Of a stretch of DNA of 62,941 bases, positions 6,201-35,920 are shown in pieces. This DNA comes from Candidatus Cloacimonadota bacterium (lineage in GTDB: Bacteria; Cloacimonadota; Cloacimonadia; JGIOTU-2), in NCBI GenBank assembly GCA_030613025.1, contig JAUWMT010000011.1:1-62941 (forward strand), written 5' to 3'. Position 1 is the stretch's first letter. Each line of letters starts with the position of its first letter. A program made the translations under genes and the position numbers. The notes under the pieces were generated by a model. That model saw only the letters and a list, made by a program, of their open reading frames with translations. It had not been told where the DNA came from and did not search any database.

Positions 6201-9200
6201 CCAGGAATATCAAGATCATCTATATACATTCCAGCATACTCAACAACGGTTGTTGCATAGAATGAAAAGACTACTTGCACATTTGCCACTCCGTCATAGG
6301 CGGAAAGGTCAAGATCTGCGTATTCCCAAACTGTGCCGGGATAGGAATCGATGGTCAGGAGAATGTCACTATTAACGATAACATCGCAATAGTCCCAATC
6401 TCCAAATATATCAGACCAGTACCAGAAATTAAGATAAGCATCTGTTACACTGGAGAAATCAAAGGTCTGGCTCATGTAAGATGATCCACCGGAGTTGGTG
6501 TAGTCACCATTAACCTTGGTTGCCCAGAGACCTGTTCCTGAATGGGCTGCTGGAGGAGGTGAATTAGCGCCTGTATAGTTGGCTACATCATACGTATTCG
6601 TCCACTCCCAGTCACCGACAGGATCCCAGTCTGCTGTGGCTACCCAGCCACCGTCTGTGGTCTCAAAGTCTTCGACATCTCTCTTGTTATAACGAATAGC
6701 TGAACTATCCTGAACAAGAATGATGAAACGATCACTTTGTACACCCATGTTGGTTACATCATATGTGTATTGAATGGAGTTACCCGCTGCAACATAATCT
6801 GAAGCATAGTACGGATCAACTGAGAAATTGATCGGAAGATATGGAGCAGGCATTACAACATTATCAAGCCCAACTCCACGGGATTCACTATTCACCTCAC
6901 TGCGATGACGCCATCTGACCTTCGCATCGTTGCCAATGTATGTGTCAGGAATTAGCACAATTGCTTCTTCGTAGTCATCCATGGGGGCATCTGAGGTAAA
7001 CATACCAATAACTTCCCACTCGGGTGTTGTATTAAGATAAGTATTGGAAATTTCAACCCAGAGTGTGTCTCCGGTAATGACTTCCGTTCCCTTGGCTTCA
7101 TAAAGATTATCATTTCTCCAGAAGAAGTCGATGAAGTCACCACCACTGATGACAAGACGTGGGGACATGAGGATCGCATCTACATCATGATACCAGCTAA
7201 CACGTGCATAGCCCTGTCCCTCATAGGCATCAGTCATGAAGCGTGCCCAGTAGTCACCTGGATTATCCCAACCAAAGGGAGGGAACATCGTCTCTTCAAA
7301 GCCCTCCATCACATAATCAGTACCTTCGATAATTACACTAAGGTCGATCATGGCAGGTTCGGGTGCGTTGGTCTGAAATTCAAGAACGTCTGCATATACG
7401 CCGAGAGCGGAAGTATCTAGAGAGATAGTAGCAATCTCAGATCCACTAGGTAAAACCGAATCAGGATATACGCATGAGAATGGTGCATCGACTGTGACAT
7501 CATTGATGTAAAGCATTCCACCACCATTATTGAAGATGGTTACATCCCAACTATCAACGGGTTCACCTTCTGTAAGCCAACCAAAATCATGAGTAGTATC
7601 ACTTAAGGCAATTACCGGCACTGCTGGAATCACTTCCCAGGATACATCATCAATATTGAAATAATCATATGTTCCGTCCAAACCATGCTTGATAGCTACA
7701 TATCCTGTAGATCTCATTGTTGTGATTGCTACAGTATGCTCAGAATAGACGTTTGTTACAGCACAAGAAGCCACTTCTGTAAATGTGGAAGGATCCGATG
7801 GATCAGTCATAGTACCAACTATTAAATACTGGGTTCCGGAACTACAGCGACCCCAAAATTTCAGAAAGTTGCCGGTCGGTGCTGATTCTAAACCAGGTGT
7901 GATCAGTAACAAATCTGCCAAGAGGTCATTGCCGTTATACATTCTGGCATTCATTATACCGGAATGTGAATAGGTTGCACTCTCCCACGTTTTAACATAG
8001 GCATATGTAGTTGTGGACTGCACGATATTTGACCATTTGTCCGGAAGGTCAGGTTCTACACAGGTTTCAAAATCCTCAAAGAAGGTAATATAAGGTGCAT
8101 ACGCGCTGGATGCGATAACATTGGCAGCGAAGATCGTGGGATCGCCCTGTGATGTGGCTGTAAAGGTCACAGTATCAGAGATATCTTTTGCTACAGGAGA
8201 AGTAACTTTAACAATAACGGTATCGACTTCGTTTGCATTAATTGCAATCGAAGAAATCGTACCGGTATCATTCTTATCTCTGATATCATAGGTCCAAGTG
8301 CCACCTGTTTCAGTAAGATCATAAGTATCATTATTCGTACCAATATTTTGAATCTCAAGGAAATAATTAAAGGGTACACCTTCAATAATCTCAGCATCAG
8401 GGGTAAGCTGATCAATAGCAACATTATGAGGTAGAATTTCTACCCATGAAACATCATCAATATAATCAGAGTCATAAGATCCGTCATTTGCATGTTTCCA
8501 TGCAACATAACCAGTTCCTTTTGCAAAATTAACTACATATTCAAATTCGGTATAAGTGGTTGTAACTCCAAATGTTTCAATGGGGGTAAATGTTGATGGA
8601 TCAGTTGGGTCTGTTATTGTACCAACTATAAAGTTTTGTGTGCTCCCACTTCTTGACCAGAAGCTTAATTTATTACCTCCAGGACCTGAAGCCAAAGCAG
8701 GTGTAATAATTAGAAGTTCTGCTGAAAGATCGTTATAGTTGTACATCTTGCCACTCATCAGCCCAGAATGTGCATAGGTCGCGCTTGAATTAGTTCTCAC
8801 ATAGGCAGAAGAACTTGAGCTCTGCACGATCTTTGACCACTTGTCTGGAAAGTAAGGTTGGACACAAGTCTCGAAGTCTTCAAAGAAATTTGCTAATGGG
8901 ACATATACGGTTGTCGTTACATCGATACTCTTAAAGAGCGTTGGATCTCCTTGTGAAGTAGCAGTAAAGGTTTCAACCTCACTAATATCTTTTGAAACAG
9001 GAGCAATAACTTTGAGAATAACTGTATCTGCTTCACTCGAATTAATAGCAATACTTGATATAACACCTGCATCATTTTTATCACGTATTTCATAAGTCCA
9101 TGTGCCACCTGTTGCAGTAAGATCATAAGTGTCATTATTCAAACCAACATTTGCAACCTTGATGAAATAATTAAAGGATTGTCCTTCAATAATTGTAGCG

Positions 9201-9763
9201 TCCGGTGTAAGCTGATCAAGAACGAGATCATAAGGTATTGGTTGACCAATTTTGAAATTATCAACAAATGTGTTTTTCAGTCCATAATCACTGATAGCTT
9301 CGAATTTTACATGAGTAACAGTTGTGGCTAATGGGGTATTATAATTTACCCAACCACCGCTTTGGCATACATCAAGAGTATCAAAGGGAGTAAACACTGC
9401 ACCGTCATCAGAAGTATAAAGAATAAGTTTTGCAGGATTATAGGAACTATCGTCATTCCACCAATAGAAATCTAATTGAGGAGATGTAAGAGCACTAATA
9501 TCAAATGCTGGTGTTGTCATAGCACCTGAATTACCTGACGAGTAATCATAGTTGTTATACATTGCTGCATAAGTTCCTGAATACGCAGAACCAGGTCCAT
9601 AAGTAGTCCCATCATCTTGCACCCAAAGATCACCTGAAGCAGATTCTGAAAGCCATCCGGTAGGTGGAAAAGTTCCTTCAAAACCTTCATTAATGACCCA
9701 TTGAGCATGAGCGACAGAAAAGGTTAACAACATTATTGCAAAGATTAAAACAATCTTTTTCAT
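221..9763 (-). CDS. Giant modular secreted protein with C-terminal type IX sorting domain
   Basis: This 3180-residue protein starts with a signal peptide (MKKIVLIFAIMLLTFSVAHA) and an AGGAGG ribosome binding site upstream of the ATG. About eight choice-of-anchor J/MAM-like modules can be recognised by their openings, such as NEGFEGTFPPTGW, FFEDFETCVQP, FFEDFETCVEP, VMEGFEETMFPPFGW and FTEGFESGDIPAGW. Three carboxypeptidase-regulatory-like modules (GTVT...G-Y) and several Ig-like stretches (for example DITPTSIPDATVPVGGTT) are interspersed. The end is a FlgD-like sorting domain (FPNPMFN...YNVKGQLV...NGIYFYKL). Residues of roughly 175-440 and 440-710 are close copies of each other. It is expected to be exported by type IX secretion and held at the cell surface or released. 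An adhesive or polymer-binding role is plausible, but no catalytic motif was seen. A strong terminator follows the gene. Confidence 0.9.
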   Translation of the reverse strand: MKKIVLIFAIMLLTFSVAHAQWVINEGFEGTFPPTGWLSESASGDLWVQDDGTTYGPGSAYSGTYAAMYNNYDYSSGNSGAMTTPAFDISALTSPQLDFYWWNDDSSYNPAKLILYTSDDGAVFTPFDTLDVCQSGGWVNYNTPLATTVTHVKFEAISDYGLKNTFVDNFKIGQPIPYDLVLDQLTPDATIIEGQSFNYFIKVANVGLNNDTYDLTATGGTWTYEIRDKNDAGVISSIAINSSEADTVILKVIAPVSKDISEVETFTATSQGDPTLFKSIDVTTTVYVPLANFFEDFETCVQPYFPDKWSKIVQSSSSSAYVRTNSSATYAHSGLMSGKMYNYNDLSAELLIITPALASGPGGNKLSFWSRSGSTQNFIVGTITDPTDPSTFTPIETFGVTTTYTEFEYVVNFAKGTGYVAWKHANDGSYDSDYIDDVSWVEILPHNVAIDQLTPDAEIIEGVPFNYFLEIQNIGTNNDTYDLTETGGTWTYDIRDKNDTGTISSIAINANEVDTVIVKVTSPVAKDISDTVTFTATSQGDPTIFAANVIASSAYAPYITFFEDFETCVEPDLPDKWSNIVQSTTTYAYVKTWESATYSHSGIMNARMYNGNDLLADLLLITPGLESAPTGNFLKFWGRCSSGTQYLIVGTMTDPSDPSTFTEVASCAVTNVYSEHTVAITTMRSTGYVAIKHGLDGTYDYFNIDDVSWEVIPAVPVIALSDTTHDFGWLTEGEPVDSWDVTIFNNGGGMLYINDVTVDAPFSCVYPDSVLPSGSEIATISLDTSALGVYADVLEFQTNAPEPAMIDLSVIIEGTDYVMEGFEETMFPPFGWDNPGDYWARFMTDAYEGQGYARVSWYHDVDAILMSPRLVISGGDFIDFFWRNDNLYEAKGTEVITGDTLWVEISNTYLNTTPEWEVIGMFTSDAPMDDYEEAIVLIPDTYIGNDAKVRWRHRSEVNSESRGVGLDNVVMPAPYLPINFSVDPYYASDYVAAGNSIQYTYDVTNMGVQSDRFIILVQDSSAIRYNKRDVEDFETTDGGWVATADWDPVGDWEWTNTYDVANYTGANSPPPAAHSGTGLWATKVNGDYTNSGGSSYMSQTFDFSSVTDAYLNFWYWSDIFGDWDYCDVIVNSDILLTIDSYPGTVWEYADLDLSAYDGVANVQVVFSFYATTVVEYAGMYIDDLDIPGGGGPGPVQPGWPATVNVPYLYLVPGETGSFVLTISIPEEANEDDVQLTPVLVYSREDYAVEHQVLALALCHPKDPYEPNDLIVDATAWAYGEITEEAQIYYNADYRDKDIDIYEFSGLEGDIILCDFILPPDELLFDGAIKLVDVDSTEIAYADEWAGGGSEQLQFRLLSDGTYYLVLGKWDNVLDGPYKKDQGRGVNTCYYAMSLELIPSPDIAVSPDSLQLGIIYNRETASVDMFIENTGVTGCEDLTFNIDVVIPGVETLYESGFEDGDDWTEIGGTNWGINNSSYAGGTPPEARFYWSPNVTALQRIISPVINTTGYTSANLTFKHYVNDYAGGYTIGVATTSDGGTTWNSVWSTIPAGSIGPETYEITVDNADMGSDQFQLCWYFDGISYDINYWYVDDVNFGVGTTWCTVEPFTGIIGQGAIQTCVVTCDETGLTEPGIYTADIIVHNDALLYGVSDVTIPLTFFYQVAAQGLQGTVTFEATGEPIENVKVSAGNFVTYTDSLGFYQFTDIASGIYDVKFEKDGFATLTRPGIYVSPNWVTLLDVSMMFDGPPPRNLNATGANEQVVINWLKPENGGGGGDEFTEGFESGDIPAGWLAVDNDGDGYNWEVWSAFVHTGTYSAASFSYINAPGPGAVTPDNYLITPQVELGSSSQLTFWVGASDAAWYSEHFKVKLSTTGSDPTDFTIELMDYTLLSAAWTQLTIDLSAYADQQVYLAWVHCDVTDQFNLSLDDIELTNAKQLIFAADFESNDDIDNFKRVSVPSNSIPFRLDESMGELEIKTRMNDYLSPKDPSPSDFTLLGYNVYEEGKGFVAYVDGENTLTYTDDIVAVGTEYTYYARGLYDEGEGAESNHDSAIPIILEFEDFEDDNGGFVGTGLWQWGAPTSGPGNAHSGDNVWATNLSGNYENSASYTLDTPEIQVLDSEFMFWHWYSTENSWDGGNVKISTDDGATWTVIIPDGGYPDDAIVGLGNEPGYTANSGDWTLAVFDVSAYLGLTVKYRWHFGSDSSVNSYPGWYIDDVLIGFGPPPDYGALEGTVTDGDLVPLEGVAVDADFLDYNTVYTNADGYYSIDPMRVGLYDVTFSKVGYCTITVEDVEIEDGITDTLDVILGHPTMDITPTSIPDATVPVGGTTTRTITVTNNGNAPLDWDASLENLTDTNYSINYDLQTNPPTPGNSEMAPFSSGTYEGDISEDTWDILYNFNAAAAGQPGIETNDLHIFTCDWRADYTGFYKYDMDGTFVESFDIAGATCIRDMAYDGTYFYGSPASTTIYKMDLENQTLIGTISVSCAGVTGVRHIAFDPELDGGNGGFWIGNWDELGAIDKDGNQIYANVSPAVQSLYGSAYDPFTADGPYLWLFSQEGSGVKLAQFEIATQSFTGVTHDATDIPGFNAGIAGGAATYITPEGIFALLVNIQQDPNLIAAYELCEATPPWITIDPDAGTVAPYGAFEEVTVYFDAGDDPIGTIHTCDITFASAQGVPSVTVPVTLMVGTPEYGDLTGTVTAATGGAPIEGAEITASNDADYTYVTYTNSLGVYTIEDMMVGYYTVECTAVGYNYQVVPDVEIIVDYVTTQNFALLAPIMVVDPTSLNVNVPPGSTSTSYITIYNNGDGPMDFDVNLYDYGKVLTDYSNCTIGGTVGSQNGLPTGPGNSDGFQADGTRDVILHYDGPNFDAIGLTSGGTFMVAARFTSDELGIYYDTYEITGVEIYINHTGSALTLKIWEGGSFGDPGSEVYSQDVFGSIVAESWNILDLTTNVPLLAGNEYWVGYETTHIVGEYPAGCDAGPAVDGKGDWIYLAPGPWDQLHIIAPSLNYNWNIRMVIDFGTAPWITVDPLFGTIPAGGSRDLAVIFDATDLTQGEVKTADIEIVPTPDVGTVTVPVTLTVSEYSNGEELVKETKLHANFPNPMFNTTTFSFSLKERSHVTLSIYNVKGQLVGILLNDELDSSASHTVEWDGTANGKKLANGIYFYKLETNTKSFLNKMILMK

Positions 9764-9951
9764 TTTTTTTTCCTCCTAAAAAAGGATTAATTTTTCGATT
9801 AATTGATAAGTAAATATAAAAAAACAAGTATTCTGGGTCGTTATCATAAGATCACTTCCCAGGTTCCCAACTTGCGAAATTAACATAATGGATATCCCGA
9901 GTATGCTGCGGGATTAAAACTCCAGCCATATAAAATTGTATTGTTAAAAAG

Positions 9952-9989
9952 GGCTGGTAACCTATTTTTGACATTAACATTCTCGCGTT
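9952..9989 (-). promoter_or_regulatory. 38-bp shared upstream element, copy 1
   Basis: The 38 bp beginning GGCTGGTAACCTATTTT and ending ACATTCTCGCGTT recur at 12726-12763 with a single mismatch. This copy lies about 190 bp upstream of the start of the 3180-residue gene and just beyond the stop of the 867-residue gene. Both copies have the same orientation and both precede a minus-strand gene for a type IX cargo protein. The bases around the copies differ, so this is a conserved island rather than a long duplication. A promoter or regulator site or a small mobile repeat are both possible. Confidence 0.5.
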
Positions 9990-10025
9990 TATTATAGAAA
10001 TTAACTGCATTAAACTAACCTTCAT

Positions 10026-12629
10026 TTAATTAAATAACACAATTTTTTTAATAGAATCATATTCTTTCAAATCATTCTTTGTTTTAAATCTCAGAAAATA
10101 AACACCACTGGCAAGATCATTTGCATCCCATTGTACTGTATGACTGCCAGTTTCTTTCATGCCATCAACGATGGTTGCTACTTTCTGTCCCCGAATATTA
10201 TATAGAGAGATTTTAACTTTTTCGGGTTGATATAGAGAAAATGAGATTTGGCAGGAATTTCTAAAGGGATTTGGGGAAAACTTCAGGTTATAAAAAGATG
10301 TTTGATCATGTCCATCATCAGCAGAAAATCCAGTTTGACCTACGACTGCTCTAATATAAAAATCACACGCCGAAACTGCCCAATTACCTATGTACCAAAC
10401 ACGAGAACGATCAGTAATACCGGGGCTATCGCCAAAAATAACAGGGAAAGAGCTTCTGAATATACAACCACCATGGAAATCTTCATTTAGTTGAAGTCCA
10501 TAAGATCTTAAGTCAACCAATGTCCAAGCATGTGGGGTGCTAGATGTATTGCTTGGGTAAACTGGAATTGGTCCTAATTGTACATTAGTAGGCATCCCAT
10601 TTAAATTTTCCCAAACATAAACATCAACTGTATCTAAGGGGTTGACAGGATCAGTGTAGAAATTAAAAAGCAGGCTGGTGAGATATATTGGGGTAGTAGG
10701 TGAAAAACGTACGGCTATTTTATCATTAAATGAATATGAATATATATATTCAGGAGAACCATCATCATAATAAAGAATTGTTCCAAATATATGACCAAAT
10801 ATTTCACTTTCACCACTATTTGGTGGAGTTGCATTGTCTGTTGCGCTTATATAATAATTAACCCATGTGCCGGCTTCTTGAAATGGTATCGTGAAATAAT
10901 ATATATCTCCAACTACGTTATATGGAATTACTTCAATAAATAATGAATCGTTATCAAGAGAATAATAGAGACTTGCTTCATTTACTCCTGATATATCAGT
11001 GATTTCAGCTGCAATAACTCTATCTTCATCTTCAAGCCAGCTTAATGTGTCGGGATCGGGAGTATGTAAAATTAGGGGGGGGGTTGTATCAATATAACTT
11101 CCTTGAACCATAAAGTCGTCTATATAAATTCCATCACATTCTACAGCACTATCGGAATATAGTCGGAATCTAAATAAAACATCTTCCTTCCCAGCATAAA
11201 AACCGATATCAATAGTTTCATGTGTCCATTCAGTCTGTAATCCATTAAACACATCCATTTGCGTCCATGTAATACCTGAATCCACCGATGCCTCAAAATA
11301 CACAAAATCAAAACTTTCTTCGAGTTCATATTTAGTCCAGAATGTAACTTCAGCGGATTGGTATTGTGATAGATCAATACCCTGACCAATTGTTTGGATC
11401 ATGTTTTGGTTGGGAGGATAATCGGAATCTGGAGAGTCTGTTAAACAATGACTTCCTGAGTATGATGTCTCATCAGTTAGCGACCAACTTCCGTACCAAT
11501 TACACATGCCGTTTTCAAAATCATCAAAAAATGATGTGGGATTCGGACCGGGATAAAGCATGATATTAAACTCACCGCTTGGATTTACCAATAATGTATC
11601 AAACGGTTCATATCCCGCTCTAAATGCAACCAAAGTTAAAGTGTCTTGTGGAACCTCGTTCAATACATATTGACCAAATACATCTGTTGTATCAATAACA
11701 TTACCAAGGGCAACAATTGTTCCTGAAAGATCCGGAGGGTTATCGCTAAGATCCACAGTGCCGTATAGTGTATTAGTACTCAAATAATTTGTTTCCCAAA
11801 TATCAAAATTACCGAATCCACCAGCTCTTTGGGATACAAAGACCATCTTTGTTCCGTTTCCTGATATAGCTGGCCATTGGTCTGTTTCTCCACAATTAAC
11901 AACAGGTCCTAAGTTCGTTGCTGCAGACCATTCATCTCCACTCCATTGAGAAACATATATATCTGATCCACCCATTCCACCAGCTCTATCGGAAGAGAAA
12001 TACATCTTTTGCCCATCAGCCGTTACGGATGGATGGGAATCATCATCAGCAGTATTCGCATAACCCGGGATTAGTTGAGGTGCAGACCAAGTAGAGCCAA
12101 CTAATACTGAAACGTAAATATCTTGCTCTCCTATACCAGACGATCTTTCTGAAGAAAAATACATGTGCCGTCCATCGCTGGTAATGAATGGATGAAAATC
12201 ATTATTTACACTATTTACTTCTGCTACTGGAACCGGCGTTCCCCAGTCACCACTAACCTTATGGCTTACCCATATGTCAAAACCACCCATACCACCAGCT
12301 CTAATTGAAGAAAAGTAAATAGAATTTCCATCAGGCGATAAACATGGTGATATTTCTAAAGAACTTGTATTAACAGGACTTCCGACATTCATAACAGGTT
12401 GCCATACATTACTCTGTAGATCAGATTTCCATATATCCATGGAACCCAATCCACCACTTCTGAAAGAACCTATATAAAGAGTATCTCCCGTAGCATTAAG
12501 CCATGGTGAATTATCAGCTACACTACTATTAACACCATCTCCCAAATTTACCGGTGGTTGCCATTGAGCTGATATTGTAGATGTGAAAAATATTATAATT
12601 AAAATCAATATAGAAATTTTTAATTTCAT
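10026..12629 (-). CDS. Secreted PD40 propeller protein with MAM-like module and sorting domain
   Basis: This is an 867-residue exported protein with N-terminal signal peptide (MKLKISILILIIIFFTSTISA). Five WD40-like PD40 (TolB-type) repeats follow in residues about 30-275, each of the form P-x-x-x-x-D/G-G-x-x-x-Y-F-S-S-x-R-x-G-G-x-G-x-x-D-I-W/Y. Next come a carboxypeptidase-regulatory-like module (TLYGTVDLSDNPPDLSG), a choice-of-anchor/MAM-like module starting FFDDFENGMCNWYG, an Ig-like stretch (DTTPPLILHTPDPDT) and the terminal sorting domain (FSPNPFRNSCQISFSL, YNIRGQKV, SGVYFLRF). The PD40 block resembles OmpA-associated and TolB-like propellers, so binding of a protein or glycan at the surface is likely. 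No catalytic residues were recognised. The 38-bp element at 12726-12763 lies about 100 bp upstream. Confidence 0.9.
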   Translation of the reverse strand: MKLKISILILIIIFFTSTISAQWQPPVNLGDGVNSSVADNSPWLNATGDTLYIGSFRSGGLGSMDIWKSDLQSNVWQPVMNVGSPVNTSSLEISPCLSPDGNSIYFSSIRAGGMGGFDIWVSHKVSGDWGTPVPVAEVNSVNNDFHPFITSDGRHMYFSSERSSGIGEQDIYVSVLVGSTWSAPQLIPGYANTADDDSHPSVTADGQKMYFSSDRAGGMGGSDIYVSQWSGDEWSAATNLGPVVNCGETDQWPAISGNGTKMVFVSQRAGGFGNFDIWETNYLSTNTLYGTVDLSDNPPDLSGTIVALGNVIDTTDVFGQYVLNEVPQDTLTLVAFRAGYEPFDTLLVNPSGEFNIMLYPGPNPTSFFDDFENGMCNWYGSWSLTDETSYSGSHCLTDSPDSDYPPNQNMIQTIGQGIDLSQYQSAEVTFWTKYELEESFDFVYFEASVDSGITWTQMDVFNGLQTEWTHETIDIGFYAGKEDVLFRFRLYSDSAVECDGIYIDDFMVQGSYIDTTPPLILHTPDPDTLSWLEDEDRVIAAEITDISGVNEASLYYSLDNDSLFIEVIPYNVVGDIYYFTIPFQEAGTWVNYYISATDNATPPNSGESEIFGHIFGTILYYDDGSPEYIYSYSFNDKIAVRFSPTTPIYLTSLLFNFYTDPVNPLDTVDVYVWENLNGMPTNVQLGPIPVYPSNTSSTPHAWTLVDLRSYGLQLNEDFHGGCIFRSSFPVIFGDSPGITDRSRVWYIGNWAVSACDFYIRAVVGQTGFSADDGHDQTSFYNLKFSPNPFRNSCQISFSLYQPEKVKISLYNIRGQKVATIVDGMKETGSHTVQWDANDLASGVYFLRFKTKNDLKEYDSIKKIVLFN

Positions 12630-27473: not shown

Positions 27474-29219
27474 TCAATTTTTCCTTGCATTAATCGCATA
27501 AAAGAACGCCCCTTTCTCAATGACCTCATCCCACACCAAATATTCATGTTCATGATAATTTGCAAGTAATTCTTTCACAATCTGTTTCGCATCTTCAATA
27601 TGTTTTATATAAAGCTTATTAGACTCTTTGCGGTTTGAGTCCTGTTCAAATTCGGTATTTATAATCCTATCAAAATCAAGATCAAGCTGAATTTCCGAAT
27701 CCTTCGCATCAACATGCGACCATTCACCTGATGTCATATCAAATTTATATAATGACAAAAACAGATGTCCATATTCAGAGATAAGTTTGATCGCTTCAAT
27801 GATATAGCTGAATTCTTCATAAGAGAGTGAATAGTGCACATTCAATCGTATCCATCCGGGTTTCATGCCTTCAAGATTAATTATACCCGTAAAACATCGG
27901 TACATCTTAGAAGTGATATCGTCAAAATGCAATAACCTGTGACCATAGGGACCTGCGCAGGAACAGCCGGCTCTTGTTTGAATCCCAAAGAGGTCATTGA
28001 GGAGCTTTGTCACGAATTTCGGATGAAGAATTCTGTCCTTATGTTTGATATTGAACGCAATGATCCCGAGTTTATCCTTTAAATCATTTGGTCCGTAAAT
28101 GATCATCCGTTCATCATCTCTAAAAGCATTGAAAAACTCAGTTACGTAACATTTTTCGATTGCTTCAATTGTATCGACACCTATTCTATTCTTAAGCTGA
28201 AGAACCATCGATGACTTGATCGCCTGCATAATGCCCGGAGTGCCGGGTTTTTCGCGGGTTTCAATATCGTTCACATAACATTCTTTATCTAAGCTGACAA
28301 ACTTTACCGTCCCACCTGCAGCAATAGTTGGCGGAAGATCGCTTCGATAGATATTTTCATTGATAATAAGAATGCCTGATGATCCGGGTCCACCCAAAAA
28401 TTTATGGGGTGAAAAGAAGATTGCGTCAAAATAACTTTCTTCATCCCGGTTCATATCAATCTCAATGTAAGGAGCGCATGCAGCAAAATCGAAACATGCA
28501 AGAGCATCATTTTCATGAAGTATTCTCGCAACATCATACACCAGCGTCTTTATTCCTGTCACATTTGATGCCGCAGAGAATGATCCGATCTTTTGCCTGT
28601 TATCATATTTTGGATCAGAAACCTCTTTTTCAAGCGCTTTCAGATCGAGCACCTGGTTCTCGTTAAGAGAAATTTCTACAACTTCGCACAGTGTTTGACG
28701 CCACATTATCTCATTGGAATGGTGTTCATAGGGACCCACAAAAACTATCGGTTTGTTTTTCTCAATAAAGTCCAGCAGTCTCTTGTGACATTGTGCATGG
28801 GATTCTTTATTCACCTGGATGCAGCTATCGAGAAATTTATTTACTCTTTCACGAGTGGCAGGAGACCAATATACTCCAAGTATCTGCTGAAGGCGTGTAA
28901 TACCTCCGGTTGCACCAGTTCCTGTAAAAATGAGCTTGCCATTTTCACCAGCATTGACCAGATCCTTTATGTGAGCTTCGGCTTCATGCAAAAGCTGTGA
29001 CATTGTCTTGCCTGTGAAGTCATCTTCTGTGTGGGTATTTGCATAGAACTGGAGAATATACTGAAGATAGTTCTCGATAAAATCCACTGCACGCCCGCTT
29101 GCCGTATAATCAGCATAAATAAGTGGTCTTGTCCCAAAAGGTGTTTCAAAAGGCATATTCCTGCCGATGATGCTCTTGCGGAGCCAATTCAATTTGTTGA
29201 TTTGATTTTCTGCATTCAT
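27474..29219 (-). CDS. Class V aminotransferase (cysteine desulfurase-like PLP enzyme)
   Basis: The 581-residue product is a fold-type I PLP enzyme of the SufS/CsdA-like class V group. Visible motifs are the cofactor-site GTGATGGITRLQQILG, the ALACFDFAACAPY Asp region, the PLP-lysine motif FFSPHKFLGGPGSSG and the late cysteine motif TRAGCSCAGPYGHR, comparable to the RAG-x-x-C loop of cysteine desulfurases. It is longer than typical SufS (about 410), with a C-terminal extension of about 130 residues without a recognised motif. Substrate is unknown: cysteine desulfuration or another elimination is possible. No suf or isc genes are adjacent. Confidence 0.85.
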   Translation of the reverse strand: MNAENQINKLNWLRKSIIGRNMPFETPFGTRPLIYADYTASGRAVDFIENYLQYILQFYANTHTEDDFTGKTMSQLLHEAEAHIKDLVNAGENGKLIFTGTGATGGITRLQQILGVYWSPATRERVNKFLDSCIQVNKESHAQCHKRLLDFIEKNKPIVFVGPYEHHSNEIMWRQTLCEVVEISLNENQVLDLKALEKEVSDPKYDNRQKIGSFSAASNVTGIKTLVYDVARILHENDALACFDFAACAPYIEIDMNRDEESYFDAIFFSPHKFLGGPGSSGILIINENIYRSDLPPTIAAGGTVKFVSLDKECYVNDIETREKPGTPGIMQAIKSSMVLQLKNRIGVDTIEAIEKCYVTEFFNAFRDDERMIIYGPNDLKDKLGIIAFNIKHKDRILHPKFVTKLLNDLFGIQTRAGCSCAGPYGHRLLHFDDITSKMYRCFTGIINLEGMKPGWIRLNVHYSLSYEEFSYIIEAIKLISEYGHLFLSLYKFDMTSGEWSHVDAKDSEIQLDLDFDRIINTEFEQDSNRKESNKLYIKHIEDAKQIVKELLANYHEHEYLVWDEVIEKGAFFYAINARKN

Positions 29220-29300: not shown

Positions 29301-29437
29301 TTGACAAAGTATTTATAGGAAACATTTATCCGAAATAAACTAAAAGACGTAAAAAGGATGTTTATTAATGGTTACTATCTATTTTAGGCGCCCCATATAC
29401 TGCTTAACCTCTCAGTATATAACATTTTAAGCAGTAT
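29301..29437 (+). promoter_or_regulatory. Candidate promoter and inverted repeat ahead of the cassette region
   Basis: TTGACA at 29301-29306 is followed after 17 bases by ATTTAT, a poor -10 match, so the promoter call is weak. An 11-bp inverted repeat, ATACTGCTTAA at 29397-29407 and TTAAGCAGTAT at 29427-29437, precedes the first plus-strand gene of the cassette region. It is not followed by a T-run. It might be a degenerate recombination site or an operator. Confidence 0.3.
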
Positions 29438-29442
29438 AATAT

Positions 29443-30039
29443 ATGTTAGGCTTAATTAGAAGAGAAAATATTAAAGCTTGGAAAGCAATAGCAATTAGAA
29501 GCATGTTTTTCGGCATTGGATTCGCAGTGACTATCGCTGTATTAGGTGGTGCAGTTTTTTTGTATATAGAGCGGCCGAAGCCGTGGAATAATACAGCTAT
29601 TACTGCTCAATACGATGAGGTTGGCATAGAGGGGGAGAAAAATACCTTTGTGTTTTATTACACACTTCAAAATAACACGAAGAAGGACTACTCGATGTCG
29701 GAGTATTCTGAAATTCCAATTTTTGCTCGACTTGCTGATGAGGAACGGCTAAGCGGTAGTCCTTCATCTGAATGGCTCACATATGATAAACTTGTCTTTA
29801 TCCCCGCTGGCCATAAAATTCGATTTGCTGTACATCTTCAGTATCCCTATCCCGAAAGCCCTAAGAAGAGTGCATCACGAGAAGAGAAAAAAGAGTTCCG
29901 TAAAAAAGCTGAACAATATGTCAGCGAAGAGTTTCGTAATTTAGATGGTTTTGTGCTTTTTGATAAAGCATTCCACTATGAAATTCGCTTGAATCGTGGG
30001 TGGACTACTATAACGAACGAAGAAACTGAAAAGAAATGA
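29443..30039 (+). CDS. Membrane-anchored protein of unknown function, first cassette gene
   Basis: This 198-residue protein is not recognised. A single hydrophobic segment (residues about 20-42, MFFGIGFAVTIAVLGGAVFL) would anchor it with the bulk, a beta-rich domain followed by a charged helical stretch (KKSASREEKKEFRKKAEQY), outside the cytoplasm. The start codon has no Shine-Dalgarno, and the sequence GTTAGGC, a perfect integron core-site form (GTTRRRY), covers codons 1-3. Five bases after the stop begins an attC-like site (30044-30101). Cassette genes with poor ribosome binding sites are common. The frame is open and coding-like over its whole length. Confidence 0.7.
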   Translation: MLGLIRRENIKAWKAIAIRSMFFGIGFAVTIAVLGGAVFLYIERPKPWNNTAITAQYDEVGIEGEKNTFVFYYTLQNNTKKDYSMSEYSEIPIFARLADEERLSGSPSSEWLTYDKLVFIPAGHKIRFAVHLQYPYPESPKKSASREEKKEFRKKAEQYVSEEFRNLDGFVLFDKAFHYEIRLNRGWTTITNEETEKK

Positions 30040-30043
30040 AATC

Positions 30044-30101
30044 CTCTAACAATCGCTTGCACCCGACGCGGTACCAGCGTGGCTGAAGCGAAACGGTAGA
30101 G
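30044..30101 (+). other. attC-like recombination site 1 (58 bp)
   Basis: The site begins with CTCTAAC (a perfect RYYYAAC core) and ends with GGTAGAG, one base off the matching GTTAGAG. Inside, TCGCTT (30053-30058) pairs with AAGCGA, and GACGC pairs with GCGT around a short loop, giving the nested imperfect palindrome of integron attC sites. The 58-bp length equals that of classical short attC sites. It follows the stop codon of the 198-residue gene by four bases, the usual cassette position. Confidence 0.7.
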
Positions 30102-30125
30102 TGAAATCTTTGGATCTGAAATAAT

Positions 30126-30932
30126 ATGGAAAACACAAGGTTTATATATCCAGGGCAACCCTTCATTGGTGAGGGTGTACTACGTACAATCCTTTCATTT
30201 AATAATGAACCAAACGACAAAGGAACTTCCTCAGTTTTAGAGCGAGAACATGCTCAAATTGCAGTTGGTGTTACAATGGTTGCTCTAGAAAGCCTTGTAA
30301 AAACGAAGCTGCATAATATTGATGAAAACGAACCAAAATTGCTTGAAGACTTATTCTTAAAGACAGTCCCAGATTCAAGTACTAATCATCCTGCATTAGG
30401 ACTATGGCATGAGCTTAAGATATTGAGGAATCAAATAATTCATTCCGGATATTTCGAAAAAAATATTCTTGGAGGAAAAATTTCCAAAGCCACTCAGACT
30501 AGAATAGGGTTTAAATTCACTTGTAGTCACATTGATTTTAAAAATGAGAGAACAAAGAAATACAGGCTTACTATCAATCCACTCAATGTTTCAAGGTATG
30601 AAGCATTTGTGACACTTTTATTTTTTTACTGGTATGGGAAGGTCACCGAAACGTGGTCATCAAATGTCCCATTGAACCGAATCTATGTTGACAGTAGGTT
30701 TAATCACGATATAATTGGCAAATGGATAAATGCTGGTCGATTTCATCACCTTGTTGGAGGGGGAAATGAATATGTTAATCTTATCGGATTTTTATCGAAT
30801 AGATTGAATCCTATTTCCAAAAAACAGATATACAAATCAGCTCTTTCGGATTTAGATATTGATTTAAATAAAAGTGCAAATACCGCATTATCAATATTAA
30901 AGATGTTTGAGACTGGTTCGATCACCTTATGA
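30126..30932 (+). CDS. HEPN-like protein of unknown function, second cassette gene
   Basis: The 268-residue product is not assigned to a named family. It is largely helical, with LKILRNQIIHSGYF placing R101 and H106 in the R-x4-6-H arrangement typical of HEPN RNase-like and Abi-type proteins. A second charged region (DFKNERTKKYRLTINPLN) and a conserved-looking C-terminus follow. HEPN proteins act in defence and stress as RNases or dimer scaffolds; that role here is inference. The gene is bracketed by attC-like sites at 30044-30101 and 30942-31065. No Shine-Dalgarno of note precedes the ATG. Confidence 0.7.
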   Translation: MENTRFIYPGQPFIGEGVLRTILSFNNEPNDKGTSSVLEREHAQIAVGVTMVALESLVKTKLHNIDENEPKLLEDLFLKTVPDSSTNHPALGLWHELKILRNQIIHSGYFEKNILGGKISKATQTRIGFKFTCSHIDFKNERTKKYRLTINPLNVSRYEAFVTLLFFYWYGKVTETWSSNVPLNRIYVDSRFNHDIIGKWINAGRFHHLVGGGNEYVNLIGFLSNRLNPISKKQIYKSALSDLDIDLNKSANTALSILKMFETGSITL

Positions 30933-30941
30933 TATTTTTCA

Positions 30942-31065
30942 CTCTAACTACCGCTGCAACGGACACCTGAAACGCTGTGTCCAATTTTAGAGTTGGACTT
31001 TGAGAGAACAATGAAACATGTAGTAGGAAAATTTAGTCTGGGCGCCGCTAATTCAGCCGTTATGC
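30942..31065 (+). other. attC-like recombination site 2 (124 bp)
   Basis: The left core CTCTAAC (30942-30948) lies 9 bp after the stop of the HEPN-like gene, and the right core GTTATGC (31059-31065) is a perfect GTTRRRY. The left core matches the start of its own cassette (TAGAG at the end of site 1), as expected if the cassette was once circular. The right half, CGCCGCTAATTCAGCCGTTATGC in two pieces, is of the common attC right-arm type. The 124-bp length is like the long attC sites of chromosomal integrons. Confidence 0.65.
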
Positions 31066-31132
31066 TTTTAATAAAAATCATAGAAAATAAATATGGATCG
31101 ATCAACAAAAATCGTATTAAGGAGAAATAAAA

Positions 31133-31237
31133 ATGGGCGACAAAGGAAAAAAAGATAAGGGTAAAAAGGAAAATCAAAAAAAGGCTAAACTTTCACTTAA
31201 GGAAAAACGTAAGCAGAAAAAAGAGAAAAATCAATAA
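31133..31237 (+). CDS. 34-residue lysine-rich small protein, cassette gene
   Basis: This short frame (MGDKGKKDKGKKENQ at its start) has 15 lysines in 34 residues and no hydrophobic segment. A good Shine-Dalgarno, AAGGAG, lies nine bases upstream of the ATG, and the gene sits between two attC-like sites, so it is probably real. Small Lys-rich proteins of this form may bind RNA, DNA or ribosomes; nothing specific is known here. It resembles the charged C-terminal tail of the neighbouring DEAD-box helicase in composition only. Confidence 0.65.
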   Translation: MGDKGKKDKGKKENQKKAKLSLKEKRKQKKEKNQ

Positions 31238-31247
31238 GGATTAAGAA

Positions 31248-31392
31248 GCATCACCGTGAAATGCGGAGAATCGGAAGAACTGTCCGCATTCTCGGACACC
31301 TATTTTTTATCAATATATTGCTTTCAGCAATGTAACGTCAAGGTGAGTGGGGCTAAGTCCTTTTGCCGGTAATGCTCATCGTTATATCGCTT
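31248..31392 (+). other. Possible degenerate attC-like site 3
   Basis: GCATCAC at 31248-31254 is one base off the RYYYAAC form that should pair with the GTTATGC start of this cassette. A hairpin ATGCGGA/TCCGCAT (31261-31267 and 31283-31289) follows, and TCGTTATAT lies near the right end. The position after the 34-residue gene and before the helicase gene fits a cassette junction, but neither core is perfect. Confidence 0.3.
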
Positions 31393-31494
31393 AAATAAAT
31401 ATTTTGGGCGGAGTTAATCTGTTCAGTAAAAAGAAAAATTTAGACAATAGTATTTATAAAGCTATTTTAATATAAAGGAATAAATTATAAAATT

Positions 31495-32766
31495 ATGCAA
31501 TTTAAAGATCTAAAAATTATTGAGCCAATCTTAAAAGCTCTAAAAGAAGAAAATTATACAGAGCCAACATCCATCCAAGAAAAAGCGATTCCGCTCATTC
31601 TAAAAAGAAATGATGTATTAGGTAGTGCTCAAACCGGTACAGGTAAAACAGCGGCTTTTGCCATTCCCATCCTGCAGCACCTCTTTCACGACCGTCAGCA
31701 GAATGACAACCCGCGTAAAATTAAGTCGCTCATCATCACTCCTACACGCGAATTGGCGATTCAAATTGGCATCAGTTTTGCGGTTTATGGAAAATTCACA
31801 GGAATCAAAAATACTGTTGTTTTCGGTGGTGTGAAGCAGGGTGCACAAACGGATGCCCTTCGCAAAGGTGTCGATGTTCTCGTTGCAACGCCTGGAAGAC
31901 TTCTGGATTTGATAGATCAGGGTTTCATCAGCTTGAATGCAATCGAATATTTTGTATTGGACGAAGCTGACCGGATGCTCGACATGGGTTTCATCAACGA
32001 CATTCGAAAGATCATCACCAAATTACCAGCAAAACGTCAGTCTTTGTTTTTTTCAGCGACAATGCCGGAAAGCATTGTAAAACTTTCGAGGAAAATTTTG
32101 ATAAATCCAAAGAAAGTCGACGTAAGTCCGATTTCATCTACTGCTGAAACTATCCAGCAATATCTGTATTATACCAACAGAATAAACAAGAAAGATTTGC
32201 TGCTTCATATACTTAAGGATCAAAATATCGATCAGGTATTGTTATTTTCCAGGACAAAACACGGGGCTGACAAAATAGCTCGTAACCTGAAAAAACATAA
32301 GATCAAATCGGCAGCTATACATGGTGACAAAGCCCAAAATAACCGGCAAAAAGTCCTGGCGCAATTTAAAGCCGGAGAAACCAGGGTGTTGGTAGCAACG
32401 GATATTGCAGCCAGGGGGATCGACATAGACAAACTAAAATATGTCATCAATTATGATATACCGAATGTAGCCGAAACATACGTCCACAGGATAGGTAGAT
32501 CCGGTAGAGCAGGGGAAGAAGGAAATGCTATATCCCTTTGCGAACCTGAAGAAAATGCTTATATCAGAGACATTGAAAAATTGATAAACCTGAAAATAAA
32601 ACGTGTTAAAGAAAACCCTTTTCCGCAAACAGATAATCCTATGACAGAAAAGGAGAAAAAGGAATGGGAAAAAGAGAAACAGCGAAGAAAACAAGAATTC
32701 TTTGCTGCAAAAAACAGCAAACAAAATAGAACAAATTTATCAAAGTTTTCCAAGAAAAATAAATAG
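31495..32766 (+). CDS. DEAD-box RNA helicase, RhlE-like
   Basis: The 423-residue protein is an ATP-dependent RNA helicase acting on structured RNA, typically in ribosome assembly or cold adaptation. The motifs are complete: Q-motif region TEPTSIQEKAIP, motif I AQTGTGKTAAFAIP, Ia PTRELAIQI, Ib TPGRLLD, II DEADRMLDMGF, III SAT, V VLVATDIAARGIDI and VI YVHRIGRSGRAG. A basic tail (KKEWEKEKQRRKQEFFAAKN) follows. AAAGGA precedes the ATG. It is plus-stranded within the attC-bounded region, an unusual cargo for a cassette, so it may be a chromosomal gene caught between cassettes. Confidence 0.95.
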   Translation: MQFKDLKIIEPILKALKEENYTEPTSIQEKAIPLILKRNDVLGSAQTGTGKTAAFAIPILQHLFHDRQQNDNPRKIKSLIITPTRELAIQIGISFAVYGKFTGIKNTVVFGGVKQGAQTDALRKGVDVLVATPGRLLDLIDQGFISLNAIEYFVLDEADRMLDMGFINDIRKIITKLPAKRQSLFFSATMPESIVKLSRKILINPKKVDVSPISSTAETIQQYLYYTNRINKKDLLLHILKDQNIDQVLLFSRTKHGADKIARNLKKHKIKSAAIHGDKAQNNRQKVLAQFKAGETRVLVATDIAARGIDIDKLKYVINYDIPNVAETYVHRIGRSGRAGEEGNAISLCEPEENAYIRDIEKLINLKIKRVKENPFPQTDNPMTEKEKKEWEKEKQRRKQEFFAAKNSKQNRTNLSKFSKKNK

Positions 32767-32811
32767 GACTTATGATGGGTAGTACCGGTTCGAAAATGAG
32801 TACAATTAATA

Positions 32812-32921
32812 AACAAAAACGCGTGCGGGTCACCTGTAGTATAGTTAATCCGGGCACGCTTATTGGCAATTTAAAGTTTACTGGCCTATTTGTTTTTGTC
32901 ATGTTATCGCCAGCGTTATGT
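32812..32921 (+). other. Possible attC-like site 4
   Basis: The stem GCGTGC/GCACGC (32821-32826 and 32854-32859) lies in the helicase-flavoprotein spacer, and CCAGCGTTATGTTATG near 32911-32926 contains GTTATGT, a valid right core. The left core is not recognisable (AAAAAC only). It is a weak candidate, supported mainly by its position. Confidence 0.3.
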
Positions 32922-32935
32922 TATGAGGTATTAAG

Positions 32936-34150
32936 GTGCAAATTGCAATAGTTGGAGGTGGTGCTGCCGGTTTCTTTTCGGCGATTACAGCAAAAGAAAA
33001 TTATCCGGGTGCCAAAGTTGTCATTTTTGAAAAATCAAAAAAGCTCTTGGCAAAGGTTAAAATATCGGGTGGAGGAAGGTGTAATATTACCAACGGTTGC
33101 ACATCCATAAAAGAACTATCCGAAGCTTATCCCAGAGGACGAAAAGCGTTGAAAAAAGCGTTTCGAATCTTTAATACCACACATGCTATGCAGTGGTTTG
33201 AGTCCAGAGGTGTTCCCCTGGTAATTCAAGATGACAATTGTGTTTTTCCTGTATCCCAAACTTCACAAAGCGTTATTGATTGTTTTTTAAAACAAACGAA
33301 AAAATTAAAGGTTGAAATTGAAGTCGGGAGAAGAATAAAAGCCATTAAACGGATCGGTGACAAGTTGGAATTGGACTTTATTGAGGGAGATGTTCCATCG
33401 AGAACTTTTGATAAGGTAATTGTTGCAACAGGCGGCTCTCCGCAAAGAAAGGGATTGCAGTGGCTTGAAAAATTACATCACAAAATCGAAGATCCTGTTC
33501 CTTCATTATTCACATTCAATATGCCTGCTGAATCGGTTACCGAGTTGATGGGAGTCACGGTAGAAAAAACTTTGGTGAGCATACAAGGAACAAAGCTTAG
33601 ATCCGAAGGTCCCCTGCTAATTACTCATTGGGGAATGAGCGGTCCGGCGATCTTGAAATTATCGGCTTTTGGAGCGAGATTATTGAGTGAAAAAGGTTAT
33701 GAATTTAAGATCCAGGTGAATTGGGTTAATGTGATTAATAATGATGCTGTTATGGATAAGTTGAGAAGCATTGTTAATGAACATTCAAATAAAATTTTGT
33801 CAAACTTTAGACCATATTTTTTGCCTGAAAGATTATGGCGTTATTTGCTTGATAAAAGTGATTTTTCAGCAAAGAAAACATGGGGGGAGCTCGGAAAGAA
33901 GGGGATTAATAAATTGGTGAATGTGTTAACCAATGATGTTTATTCTGTGAAAGGGAAAACATCATTTAAAGAAGAGTTTGTGACTTGTGGTGGTGTTAGT
34001 CTGGAAAGTATCGATTTTAATACTATGCAAAGCAAGGTGTGCAAAAACCTATATTTTGCAGGCGAAATAATGGACATTGATGGAATTACCGGAGGTTATA
34101 ATTTTCAAGCCGCCTGGACAACAGCATTTATAGCAGGTAAGCTGAATTAA
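32936..34150 (+). CDS. BaiN/HI0933-like FAD-dependent oxidoreductase
   Basis: The 404-residue protein belongs to the HI0933/YhiN/BaiN family of flavoproteins. The N-terminal dinucleotide-binding motif is AIVGGGAAGFFSAITA, followed by KVKISGGGRCNITNGC, the family hallmark, then KVIVATGGSPQRKG. The C-terminal GEIMDIDGITGGYNFQAAW is the second FAD contact. The physiological substrate of most members is unknown; BaiN is implicated in bile-acid dehydroxylation, which cannot be assumed here. The start is GTG at 32936 with GAGG seven bases upstream. The gene is the last cassette-type cargo before the IS630 insertion. Confidence 0.93.
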   Translation: MQIAIVGGGAAGFFSAITAKENYPGAKVVIFEKSKKLLAKVKISGGGRCNITNGCTSIKELSEAYPRGRKALKKAFRIFNTTHAMQWFESRGVPLVIQDDNCVFPVSQTSQSVIDCFLKQTKKLKVEIEVGRRIKAIKRIGDKLELDFIEGDVPSRTFDKVIVATGGSPQRKGLQWLEKLHHKIEDPVPSLFTFNMPAESVTELMGVTVEKTLVSIQGTKLRSEGPLLITHWGMSGPAILKLSAFGARLLSEKGYEFKIQVNWVNVINNDAVMDKLRSIVNEHSNKILSNFRPYFLPERLWRYLLDKSDFSAKKTWGELGKKGINKLVNVLTNDVYSVKGKTSFKEEFVTCGGVSLESIDFNTMQSKVCKNLYFAGEIMDIDGITGGYNFQAAWTTAFIAGKLN

Positions 34151-34465
34151 CCTAATTTGGATAAACCAAAACCAGAAATTTTCAACGAACAAAATCTAAC
34201 AATAAAAGTTCATTGTTGTGAGTGTTTTTGAGTTGCTTTAAAATTTTCCGCCAAAAATTACATCCAATTTATTGATAAGATACTAATATTTAAGGATCAA
34301 TTGCCCCAATTGACCGTTATTTGAGACAATCTGTCACTTCTGAAATCTCAAATCGGTGTTCTTCAATCTTCAATCAAAATTATTGTAATGAGAAAGGTTG
34401 CTTCAGCATAGTTGCCTTCATGGAGTGGTCCATGACGACTCGGTAATTATTAAAGGAGCAAACTA

Positions 34466-35722
34466 GTATTTCATTCTCTAAATAGGTGCACAAGTTAGAT
34501 TGATATTTCATCCATTTTATATTTCCATCTAAATCTTACGGGAGTTTTATTTATTCCATTCAAATAATTGCATATTCTTTCTTTCAGTTCCTGTTTGCTA
34601 TTCACTCTAATACCTCTTAAGAAGCTTCTTGTCATCTTACTAAAAAAAGATTCTATTATGTTTAACCATGAACCATGTTTTGGCGTAAAAACAAATTCAA
34701 ACCTATTGGGTTTTGAAGTTAAGAATTTCTTCGTTTCTTTCGATATATGTGATGAAACATTATCTAAAATAATCCTGATTTTCTTGTCTTTATCATATTT
34801 GCTATCAAGAAGTTGAAGAAGATTAATAAAGTCAGAACTTTTATGAGTTTCGCTAACATTATATATGATTTCACCATTATATAGATCTATTCCTGCCAGC
34901 AAACTCAAGGTTCCGTGACGTACATATTCATAATCTCTATAAATACAACCATTTCCACTATTGGGCAAAGGTAATAATTCTTTTCCTTTGTTACCGATTG
35001 CTTGTATTCCCGGTTTTTCATCAAAACTAACAGTGATTTTGTCTGGTTGAGAAATATCTCCATTATCAATCTTTTGGTTAGTAAGTTCTACTTCCTTATA
35101 AATATAAAGAACTTGCTCCATCTTTGATTCAAATTCAGGATCTCTTTTTTCAACATAATATTTTATCTTGTGAGGTTTAAGTTCCGCGTCGTTAAGAATA
35201 TTCCACAATTTTGAAACTGATAAATTAGTTAAATTAATATGACCTACACCATTACAATTTGCCCTTATATGTTTTAGAAGAAGGCTATAAGTCCAGATTT
35301 CATGCGGGTATCCCAGTTCCTTTGGTTTTTGACAAGCAAGATTTATTATCCAAACTTTTTCATTGGCAGTTATCACTGCTTTTTTCCCACTACGAGGTTG
35401 ATCAGTCAAAGCTGCTTCTACCCCCATAGAAACACATTTTTCCAAGCATAAAATAACTGTCTTACGATTAACCTTCAAATCTCTTGCTATTTGTGAATCG
35501 TTTATCTTTGAGATACTTTCAAAAATAATTTTTGACCTTAATACTTTTCTAAAAGGTTCTGTCCTCGATTTGCTAATTCTTTCAAGCATATCTTTTTCTG
35601 CTTTAGTTAGAACAATTTTTGCTCGCTTACTTGGTCTTCCCATTTTTGCTCCTTATTCATTTTTTGGAGTCAAAATGAGTTTTCCAATATCTTTTTGTCC
35701 AGTTATTTTAAGAATGAAGTAC
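34466..35722 (-). mobile_element. IS630-family insertion sequence, apparently complete
   Basis: The element is about 1257 bp with imperfect terminal inverted repeats, GTATTTCATTCT at 34466 and GTACTTCATTCT on the complementary strand at 35722. More weakly similar bases continue inward. A TA dinucleotide lies at both ends (34464-34465 and 35723-35724), the target duplication expected of IS630/Tc1-mariner elements. It contains one intact transposase gene. The insertion lies between the flavoprotein gene and the best attC site, so it entered the cassette array after assembly. Confidence 0.88.
34495..35643 (-). CDS. IS630-family DDE transposase
   Basis: The 382-residue transposase has two N-terminal helix-turn-helix regions (QIARDLKVNRKTVILCLEK and the SVSKLWNIL stretch) and a DDE catalytic core: first Asp in TVSFDEKPGIQA, second in RIILDNVSSH and the Glu in SWLNIIESFF. 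The order and spacing match the IS630/Tc1-mariner family, and no frameshift is present, so the element may still be active. It is transcribed on the minus strand, opposite to the cassette genes. Confidence 0.95.
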   Translation of the reverse strand: MGRPSKRAKIVLTKAEKDMLERISKSRTEPFRKVLRSKIIFESISKINDSQIARDLKVNRKTVILCLEKCVSMGVEAALTDQPRSGKKAVITANEKVWIINLACQKPKELGYPHEIWTYSLLLKHIRANCNGVGHINLTNLSVSKLWNILNDAELKPHKIKYYVEKRDPEFESKMEQVLYIYKEVELTNQKIDNGDISQPDKITVSFDEKPGIQAIGNKGKELLPLPNSGNGCIYRDYEYVRHGTLSLLAGIDLYNGEIIYNVSETHKSSDFINLLQLLDSKYDKDKKIRIILDNVSSHISKETKKFLTSKPNRFEFVFTPKHGSWLNIIESFFSKMTRSFLRGIRVNSKQELKERICNYLNGINKTPVRFRWKYKMDEISI

Positions 35723-35789
35723 TAGGTCGGACAAAAGGATTGGGACTATCCGAAAAGAAGGTGAAAAGAAAGCTGGTAAGTAGTCCACC

Positions 35790-35920
35790 TTCTAACAAAT
35801 CATTGGAATCGACCTCCAGGGGCGTCAGTTTTTGAGCTTGGTTCTGCTTCAGGGAGTCGGTTGAAGGACAAGGGTTGTTCTGCATATCGTTCTGGCGGCG
35901 GCTCAATTATGGCGTTAGAA
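35790..35920 (+). other. attC-like recombination site 5 (131 bp), best match
   Basis: The site starts with TTCTAAC and ends with GTTAGAA, perfectly complementary and perfect RYYYAAC and GTTRRRY cores. Inner arms GAATCGACCTCC (35809 on) and GGAGTCGGTTGAAGG partly pair, and CTCAATTATGGCGTTAGAA is a typical right arm. The 131-bp length resembles long chromosomal attC sites. It lies beyond the IS630 insertion and about 130 bp before the stop of the minus-strand DUF1232 gene, so it probably marks the right end of the cassette array. Confidence 0.8.

Follow-up and report, generated by a model that had tools for sequence, protein, structure and literature searches.

A chromosomal integron that has probably lost its integrase gene in a Candidatus Cloacimonadota bacterium

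An integron is a genetic socket that captures genes, and the locus described here raises the question of whether a run of co-oriented genes in a Candidatus Cloacimonadota bacterium is such a socket, where it ends, and what became of its integrase. The window (the whole stretch of 62,941 nucleotides that was analysed, contig C60) belongs to a draft genome of 2.83 Mb in 98 contigs that is 98.45% complete. The first-pass annotation, made from the sequence of the window, described five co-oriented genes at 29.44-34.15 kb between minus-strand blocks and took the region from 29.4 to 35.9 kb as one cassette array of the CALIN type, with its integrase elsewhere or lost. The gene orientation was as described, the ORF list giving plus-strand genes over 29443-34150 flanked by minus-strand blocks. 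We propose, with a probability of about 0.86, that 29301-31059, with a possible extension to 31381, represents a chromosomal integron from which the native integrase gene was deleted. The proposal is built on sequence comparison, which gives the cassette boundaries, the exchange of cassettes, attI and attC homology, what is left of intI in a sister species and a complete intI gene on contig C4; we infer the deletion of intI at this locus and expression from the promoter.

Cassette exchange, attC sites and circle closure

The left flank is formed by a resident minus-strand gene (27474-29219) for a class-V aminotransferase-like protein of 581 aa (PF00266, 2.5e-39), whose orthologue adjoins the same locus in the relatives G001, G002 and G006 and is also present in G003, G004, G008 and G010. 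The compared genomes are draft assemblies. G001 belongs to the same genus, and its left flanks are 86-93% identical to the window at the DNA level. The same neighbourhood was found in G001 and G006 with other DNA in place of 29445-31059, and the boundaries of the exchange are fixed, after G29445 and after G31059, both being G^TTRRRY-type points. The leader common to the three genomes ends with ...ATATATG^TTAGRY (...AAATATG^TTAGAT in G006), and shared sequence resumes after ...CG^TTATGC in the window, ...CG^TTATGT in G001 and ...CCG^TAATTT in G006. Between these points the window carries ORF1 and ORF2, G001 one lipoprotein-like gene with a weak DUF2314 match, and G006 one DUF5677 gene. Breakpoints at the G of GTTRRRY with differing genes in related strains had been put forward as a check, and the outcome was positive in all three genomes.

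Two cassettes occupy the plus strand in this interval. Cassette 1 (29446-30095, boundaries from the G001/G006 comparison and closure analysis) contains ORF1 (29443-30039, plus strand, 198 aa), in which one membrane segment was predicted by eye and which gave no match in Pfam or NCBIfam. The start codon of ORF1 (29443-29445) coincides with the final triplet of the attI-like site described below; such a site may provide the ATG for an incoming cassette. Cassette 2 (30096-31059) contains ORF2 (30126-30932, plus strand, 268 aa), which likewise had no Pfam or NCBIfam match and was absent from all other relative genomes searched; an RNxxxH motif noticed by eye makes it a putative HEPN-like protein. 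A search of the window at Rfam gathering thresholds found no match.

For the recombination sites, attC sequences were collected de novo from the IntI loci of 80 other bacteria, and a scorer combining the two attC halves and their pairing was trained only on integrons of other organisms. Early scorers demanding strict core complementarity gave almost nothing, and the criteria were then relaxed. The scorer was applied to the window and to 530 kb of the same genome, with reversed sequence as control (best control 34.0 in 530 kb). The three attC sites proposed at the outset coincide exactly with the top three plus-strand scores of the window: 30044-30101 (50.5), 35790-35920 (40.9) and 30942-31065 (29.3). 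The first, attC1 (58 bp), is the best site of the 530 kb; on the bottom strand it folds into an attC-type hairpin that has unpaired bases (z -2.76), in agreement with the classical attC-like pairing ascribed to it, though its crossover triplet has decayed from GTT to GGT. The 131-bp site at 35790-35920 (plus strand) has the perfectly complementary 7-bp cores read earlier (TTCTAAC/GTTAGAA). These two sites, with R''/R' cores, are convincing by themselves, one of them folding well. The third, attC2 (30937-31065, plus strand, crossover after G31059; first noted as 124 bp at 30942-31065), is weak alone, scoring below the best reversed control and folding no better than shuffled sequences; the breakpoints in the relatives, its right one being common to G001 and G006, and the closure analysis lend it support. 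The proposed check with an attC covariance model was carried out with a home-made model (R1), derived from attC of the kind collected for the scorer, that is GC-biased and weak for long attC, and therefore a two-block weight matrix was run alongside. At E<1, R1 matched attC1 (14.6 bits, E 0.29) and no other site in the window, so that two or more R1 matches within about 4 kb were not found.

In a free, circular cassette the 5' end has to be complementary to the R'' arm of the attC that belongs to it. For cassette 2, 11 of 12 bases agree between the 5' end and the attC arm, the top match in the window, and an unbiased scan of the plus strand of the window ranked the expected arm (30937) first; by this test cassette 2 would close as a circle. 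Over the same 12 bases, closure was 12 for the G006 cassette, 10 and 12 for two cassettes on contig C65 of this genome, 11 for the array on contig C4 and 8 for the G001 cassette, and it was poor (6/12) for cassette 1. With nine cassettes whose arms were picked by eye, none of 20,000 permutations reached the observed closure total.

The attI-like site and the missing integrase gene

The sequence before the first cassette, which had no place in the first-pass annotation, is an attI-like site, not an attC, as judged from its homologues. It lies at 29380-29450 on the plus strand, contains GCAGTATA repeats and has its crossover after G29445 (ATATATG^TTAGGC). The site aligns with one beside the intact intI of G009, and the last 70 bases of the leader have several matches, both in this genome and in G006, every one of which stops at that crossover. 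An attI model (R2), trained on relatives only, matched the window with 63.2 bits (E 5.7e-17); two of the sequences it was trained on are orthologous to the window site, and the independent support for the site therefore comes from other loci. Strong further copies in the same genome were found on C65 (twice, 4e-18 and 1e-15) and C57 (8e-12), and weaker sites on C85, C65 and C81; in a search of 41 genomes, strong matches were confined to the family to which this genome belongs. In G009 the attI-like site is about 280 bp from the start of the intact, divergent intI, and on G006 contig C101 and G015 contig C128 the distance to the likewise divergent intI remnants is 220-260 bp. By homology to these sites, a putative attI precedes the first cassette of the window.

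Upstream of the site, a TTGACA hexamer (29301-29306, plus strand), the presumed -35 element of a cassette promoter (Pc), occupies a conserved position. At all 13 attI-like sites examined TTGACA is found 131-182 nt before the crossover and directed at the cassettes (0.018 expected per site), and it is also present at the intI locus on C4 (133 nt); a consistent -10 element was not found alongside it at the 13 sites.

The window gave no IntI match, and no intI stands next to its attI-like site. The integrase had been expected elsewhere if not lost, and one full IntI is indeed encoded in the genome, on C4 (TIGR02249, 434.7 bits; cut-off 265), 62% identical to the IntI of G009 and G005. Its own attI is laid out alike, the crossover lying 213 nt away from the start codon and TTGACA being found at 133 nt, but it has other repeat sequences, and because of this difference the C4 integrase may not be cognate to the window site. 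The orthologous locus of G001 retains the intI promoter region and first codons (YMRLFMQDKKILTQ), which share 91% identity over 103 nt with the decayed intI-attI unit on G006 C101 (E 5e-36); in the extra 1.5 kb of G001, an intI pseudogene search found nothing beyond this intI start. Since the congener's copy of the locus keeps the start of the gene, intI has probably been deleted from the window locus. An intI N-terminal remnant also lies near an attC on C74. The intI-like fragments on C81 and C33 were considered as marks of lost integrons and dropped, as they resemble other tyrosine recombinases.

The locus may also be looked at as a true CALIN, produced by off-target insertion into an attG before the small gene that follows cassette 2, by an IntI encoded elsewhere, with no integron ever present here. 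CALINs have been proposed to arise by such insertion (PMC8618304), and in G002 and in a second copy of the locus in G006 the flanks are joined without cassettes, with both insertion ends at one point (...AGA^TTATGC) in a gapless alignment made by eye. However, an attI-like site stands at the start of the insert, and next to it the sister species still has the beginning of intI, neither of which would be given by off-target cassette insertion alone, and we regard this origin as quite improbable. The G006 locus (L139) is itself a tandem duplicate, in which leader, small gene and helicase start are repeated (9991-10428 and 10480-10900) and the attI-like site and cassette are in the first copy only.

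That the attC-like motifs arose by chance in an ordinary AT-rich region with the usual gene gain and loss is hardly credible: the cores are short and degenerate, and attC2 alone falls within the control range, but the scorer, the common G^TT breakpoints and the attI homology with intI-bearing loci coincide in their coordinates.

In the preferred reading, a complete integron would once have stood at the locus, and its attI-like site, placed behind a promoter-like element, would have served an IntI tyrosine recombinase as the entry point for circular cassettes, at G29445^T. There would now be two cassettes in place (three with the small basic gene), read from the upstream promoter, and congeners hold other cassettes at the same point; the intI start, still upstream of the attI-like site in the sister species, is gone here.

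The right-hand limit of the array

The segment that follows cassette 2 (31060-31381, plus strand) carries a small basic gene (31133-31237, 34 aa, MGDKGKKDKG...) with no Pfam match. The gene is present in every congener where the locus is seen, and in G002 the promoter-like element immediately precedes it. The gene may represent a third cassette, because the segment starts at G^TTATGC and a degenerate attC-like site stands behind the gene, or it may be the resident first gene. The site in question (31330-31387, plus strand, CG^TTATATC) has outer arms complementary at 10 of 12 bases, and its congener copy scores 28.8. Closure of the small gene was 9/12 when the window end was paired with the G006 arm and 6/12 within G001. 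Of the two weak candidates earlier suggested at the remaining gene junctions, this one is probably a degenerate attC, while at the other, near 32.91 kb, the scorer found no attC above control.

Beyond this segment are an RhlE-type DEAD-box helicase gene (31495-32766, plus strand; PF00270, PF00271) and an HI0933-type flavoprotein gene (32936-34150, plus strand; TIGR00275, 433.3 bits against a cut-off of 183.8), both probably resident. Their inclusion in one old cassette array reaching 34.2 kb is unlikely, though somewhat less so than the off-target origin weighed above. The helicase may be an old cassette: at 98% amino acid identity in G001 and 86% in G006, with none at that threshold in other genomes, it is limited to the three genus members with an attI-like site here, it is missing between its neighbours in G005, and CG^TTATATC precedes it; the segment is also closer to G001 than the left flanks are. 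Against an array of that length, helicase and flavoprotein fail to close as circles, the 32.9-kb junction has no attC above control, the flavoprotein is kept in five of the eight genus members searched, and synteny ends at an insertion sequence. As for the closer similarity, 31104-34467 is 95-98% identical to G001, non-coding parts included, versus 86-93% for the left flanks, which suggests a recent exchange of the 31.1-34.47 kb stretch.

The insertion sequence is of the IS630 family (34467-35722, minus strand, at a TA target, ends by eye; transposase at 34495-35643, minus strand; NF033545, 208.5 bits), and synteny with G001 stops at its left end. Because the 131-bp attC at 35790-35920 lies beyond both IS630 and the synteny break, it is taken as the remnant of a separate, truncated array. 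The single array of 29.4-35.9 kb was therefore not upheld: the exchangeable part would be 29446-31059, perhaps to 31381, with two to three cassettes in place of five genes up to 35.9 kb.

Relation to known integrons and dispersed attI-like sites

The locus resembles a CALIN in having attC-bearing cassettes without adjoining intI and an intI elsewhere in the genome, and differs in that an attI-like site and a promoter-like element are kept. Because these precede the first cassette, an integron that lost intI describes the locus better than a plain CALIN. The default rule of IntegronFinder 2 is at least two attC (PMC12444791); with R1, one attC was found at E<1 here and two are reached only by counting weaker sites. 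Routes of CALIN formation have already been listed (PMC8618304). Sedentary chromosomal integrons with inactivated or lost intI are known in Xanthomonas (PMC12444791); as here, intI is decayed or deleted, cassettes are kept, the sister-species locus holds other cassettes and further arrays lie elsewhere, whereas the lineage is another one and in the present case several dispersed attI-like sites occur per genome. According to PMC12901181, attI-derived sites form part of resistance cassettes in mobile integrons, a likeness in that they lie away from the normal single position of attI; the difference is that here whole attI-like platforms with promoter-like elements lie at separate chromosomal loci. 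A literature search found nothing specific on integrons of Cloacimonadota. Integrons without intI are thus already known, and the less usual feature is the number of attI-like platforms per genome.

The three states seen at one locus (unoccupied, platform with intI remnant, platform without intI) would form a natural stepwise record of integron decay, and the lineage-specific attI family, in several copies per genome, would be overlooked by searches for intI and attC alone. Tentatively, and with more doubt than belief, we consider a distributed system, in which a genome holds many attI platforms, every one having a promoter and a few cassettes of its own, that a single IntI or a small number of them supply in trans, and attI modules spread to new loci, pieces of the target gene being duplicated at some of them. 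If platforms are still used in trans, the customary view that an integron has a single attI and a single array would have to be broadened.

Further attC-like sites above control were also found on contigs C89 (6483-6543), C81 (35774-35846), C85, C74 (89910-89969) and C76 (near 13.5 kb, among other examples), and cassettes are therefore scattered over the genome. On C65 (L165, reverse strand, 7690-11280) two consecutive attI-like platforms are each followed by cassettes, which encode a secreted repeat protein and a 4HBT thioesterase, and a trypsin-like protease; both platforms are preceded by an apparent cysteine-desulfurase gene start, identified by eye. On C4 (L009, 3855-3948 and 9496) the full intI is directly upstream of rsmI, as in G005 (L150), and the present genome has a second copy of the initial ~90 bp of rsmI, which is joined with an attC-like site at the array's far end.
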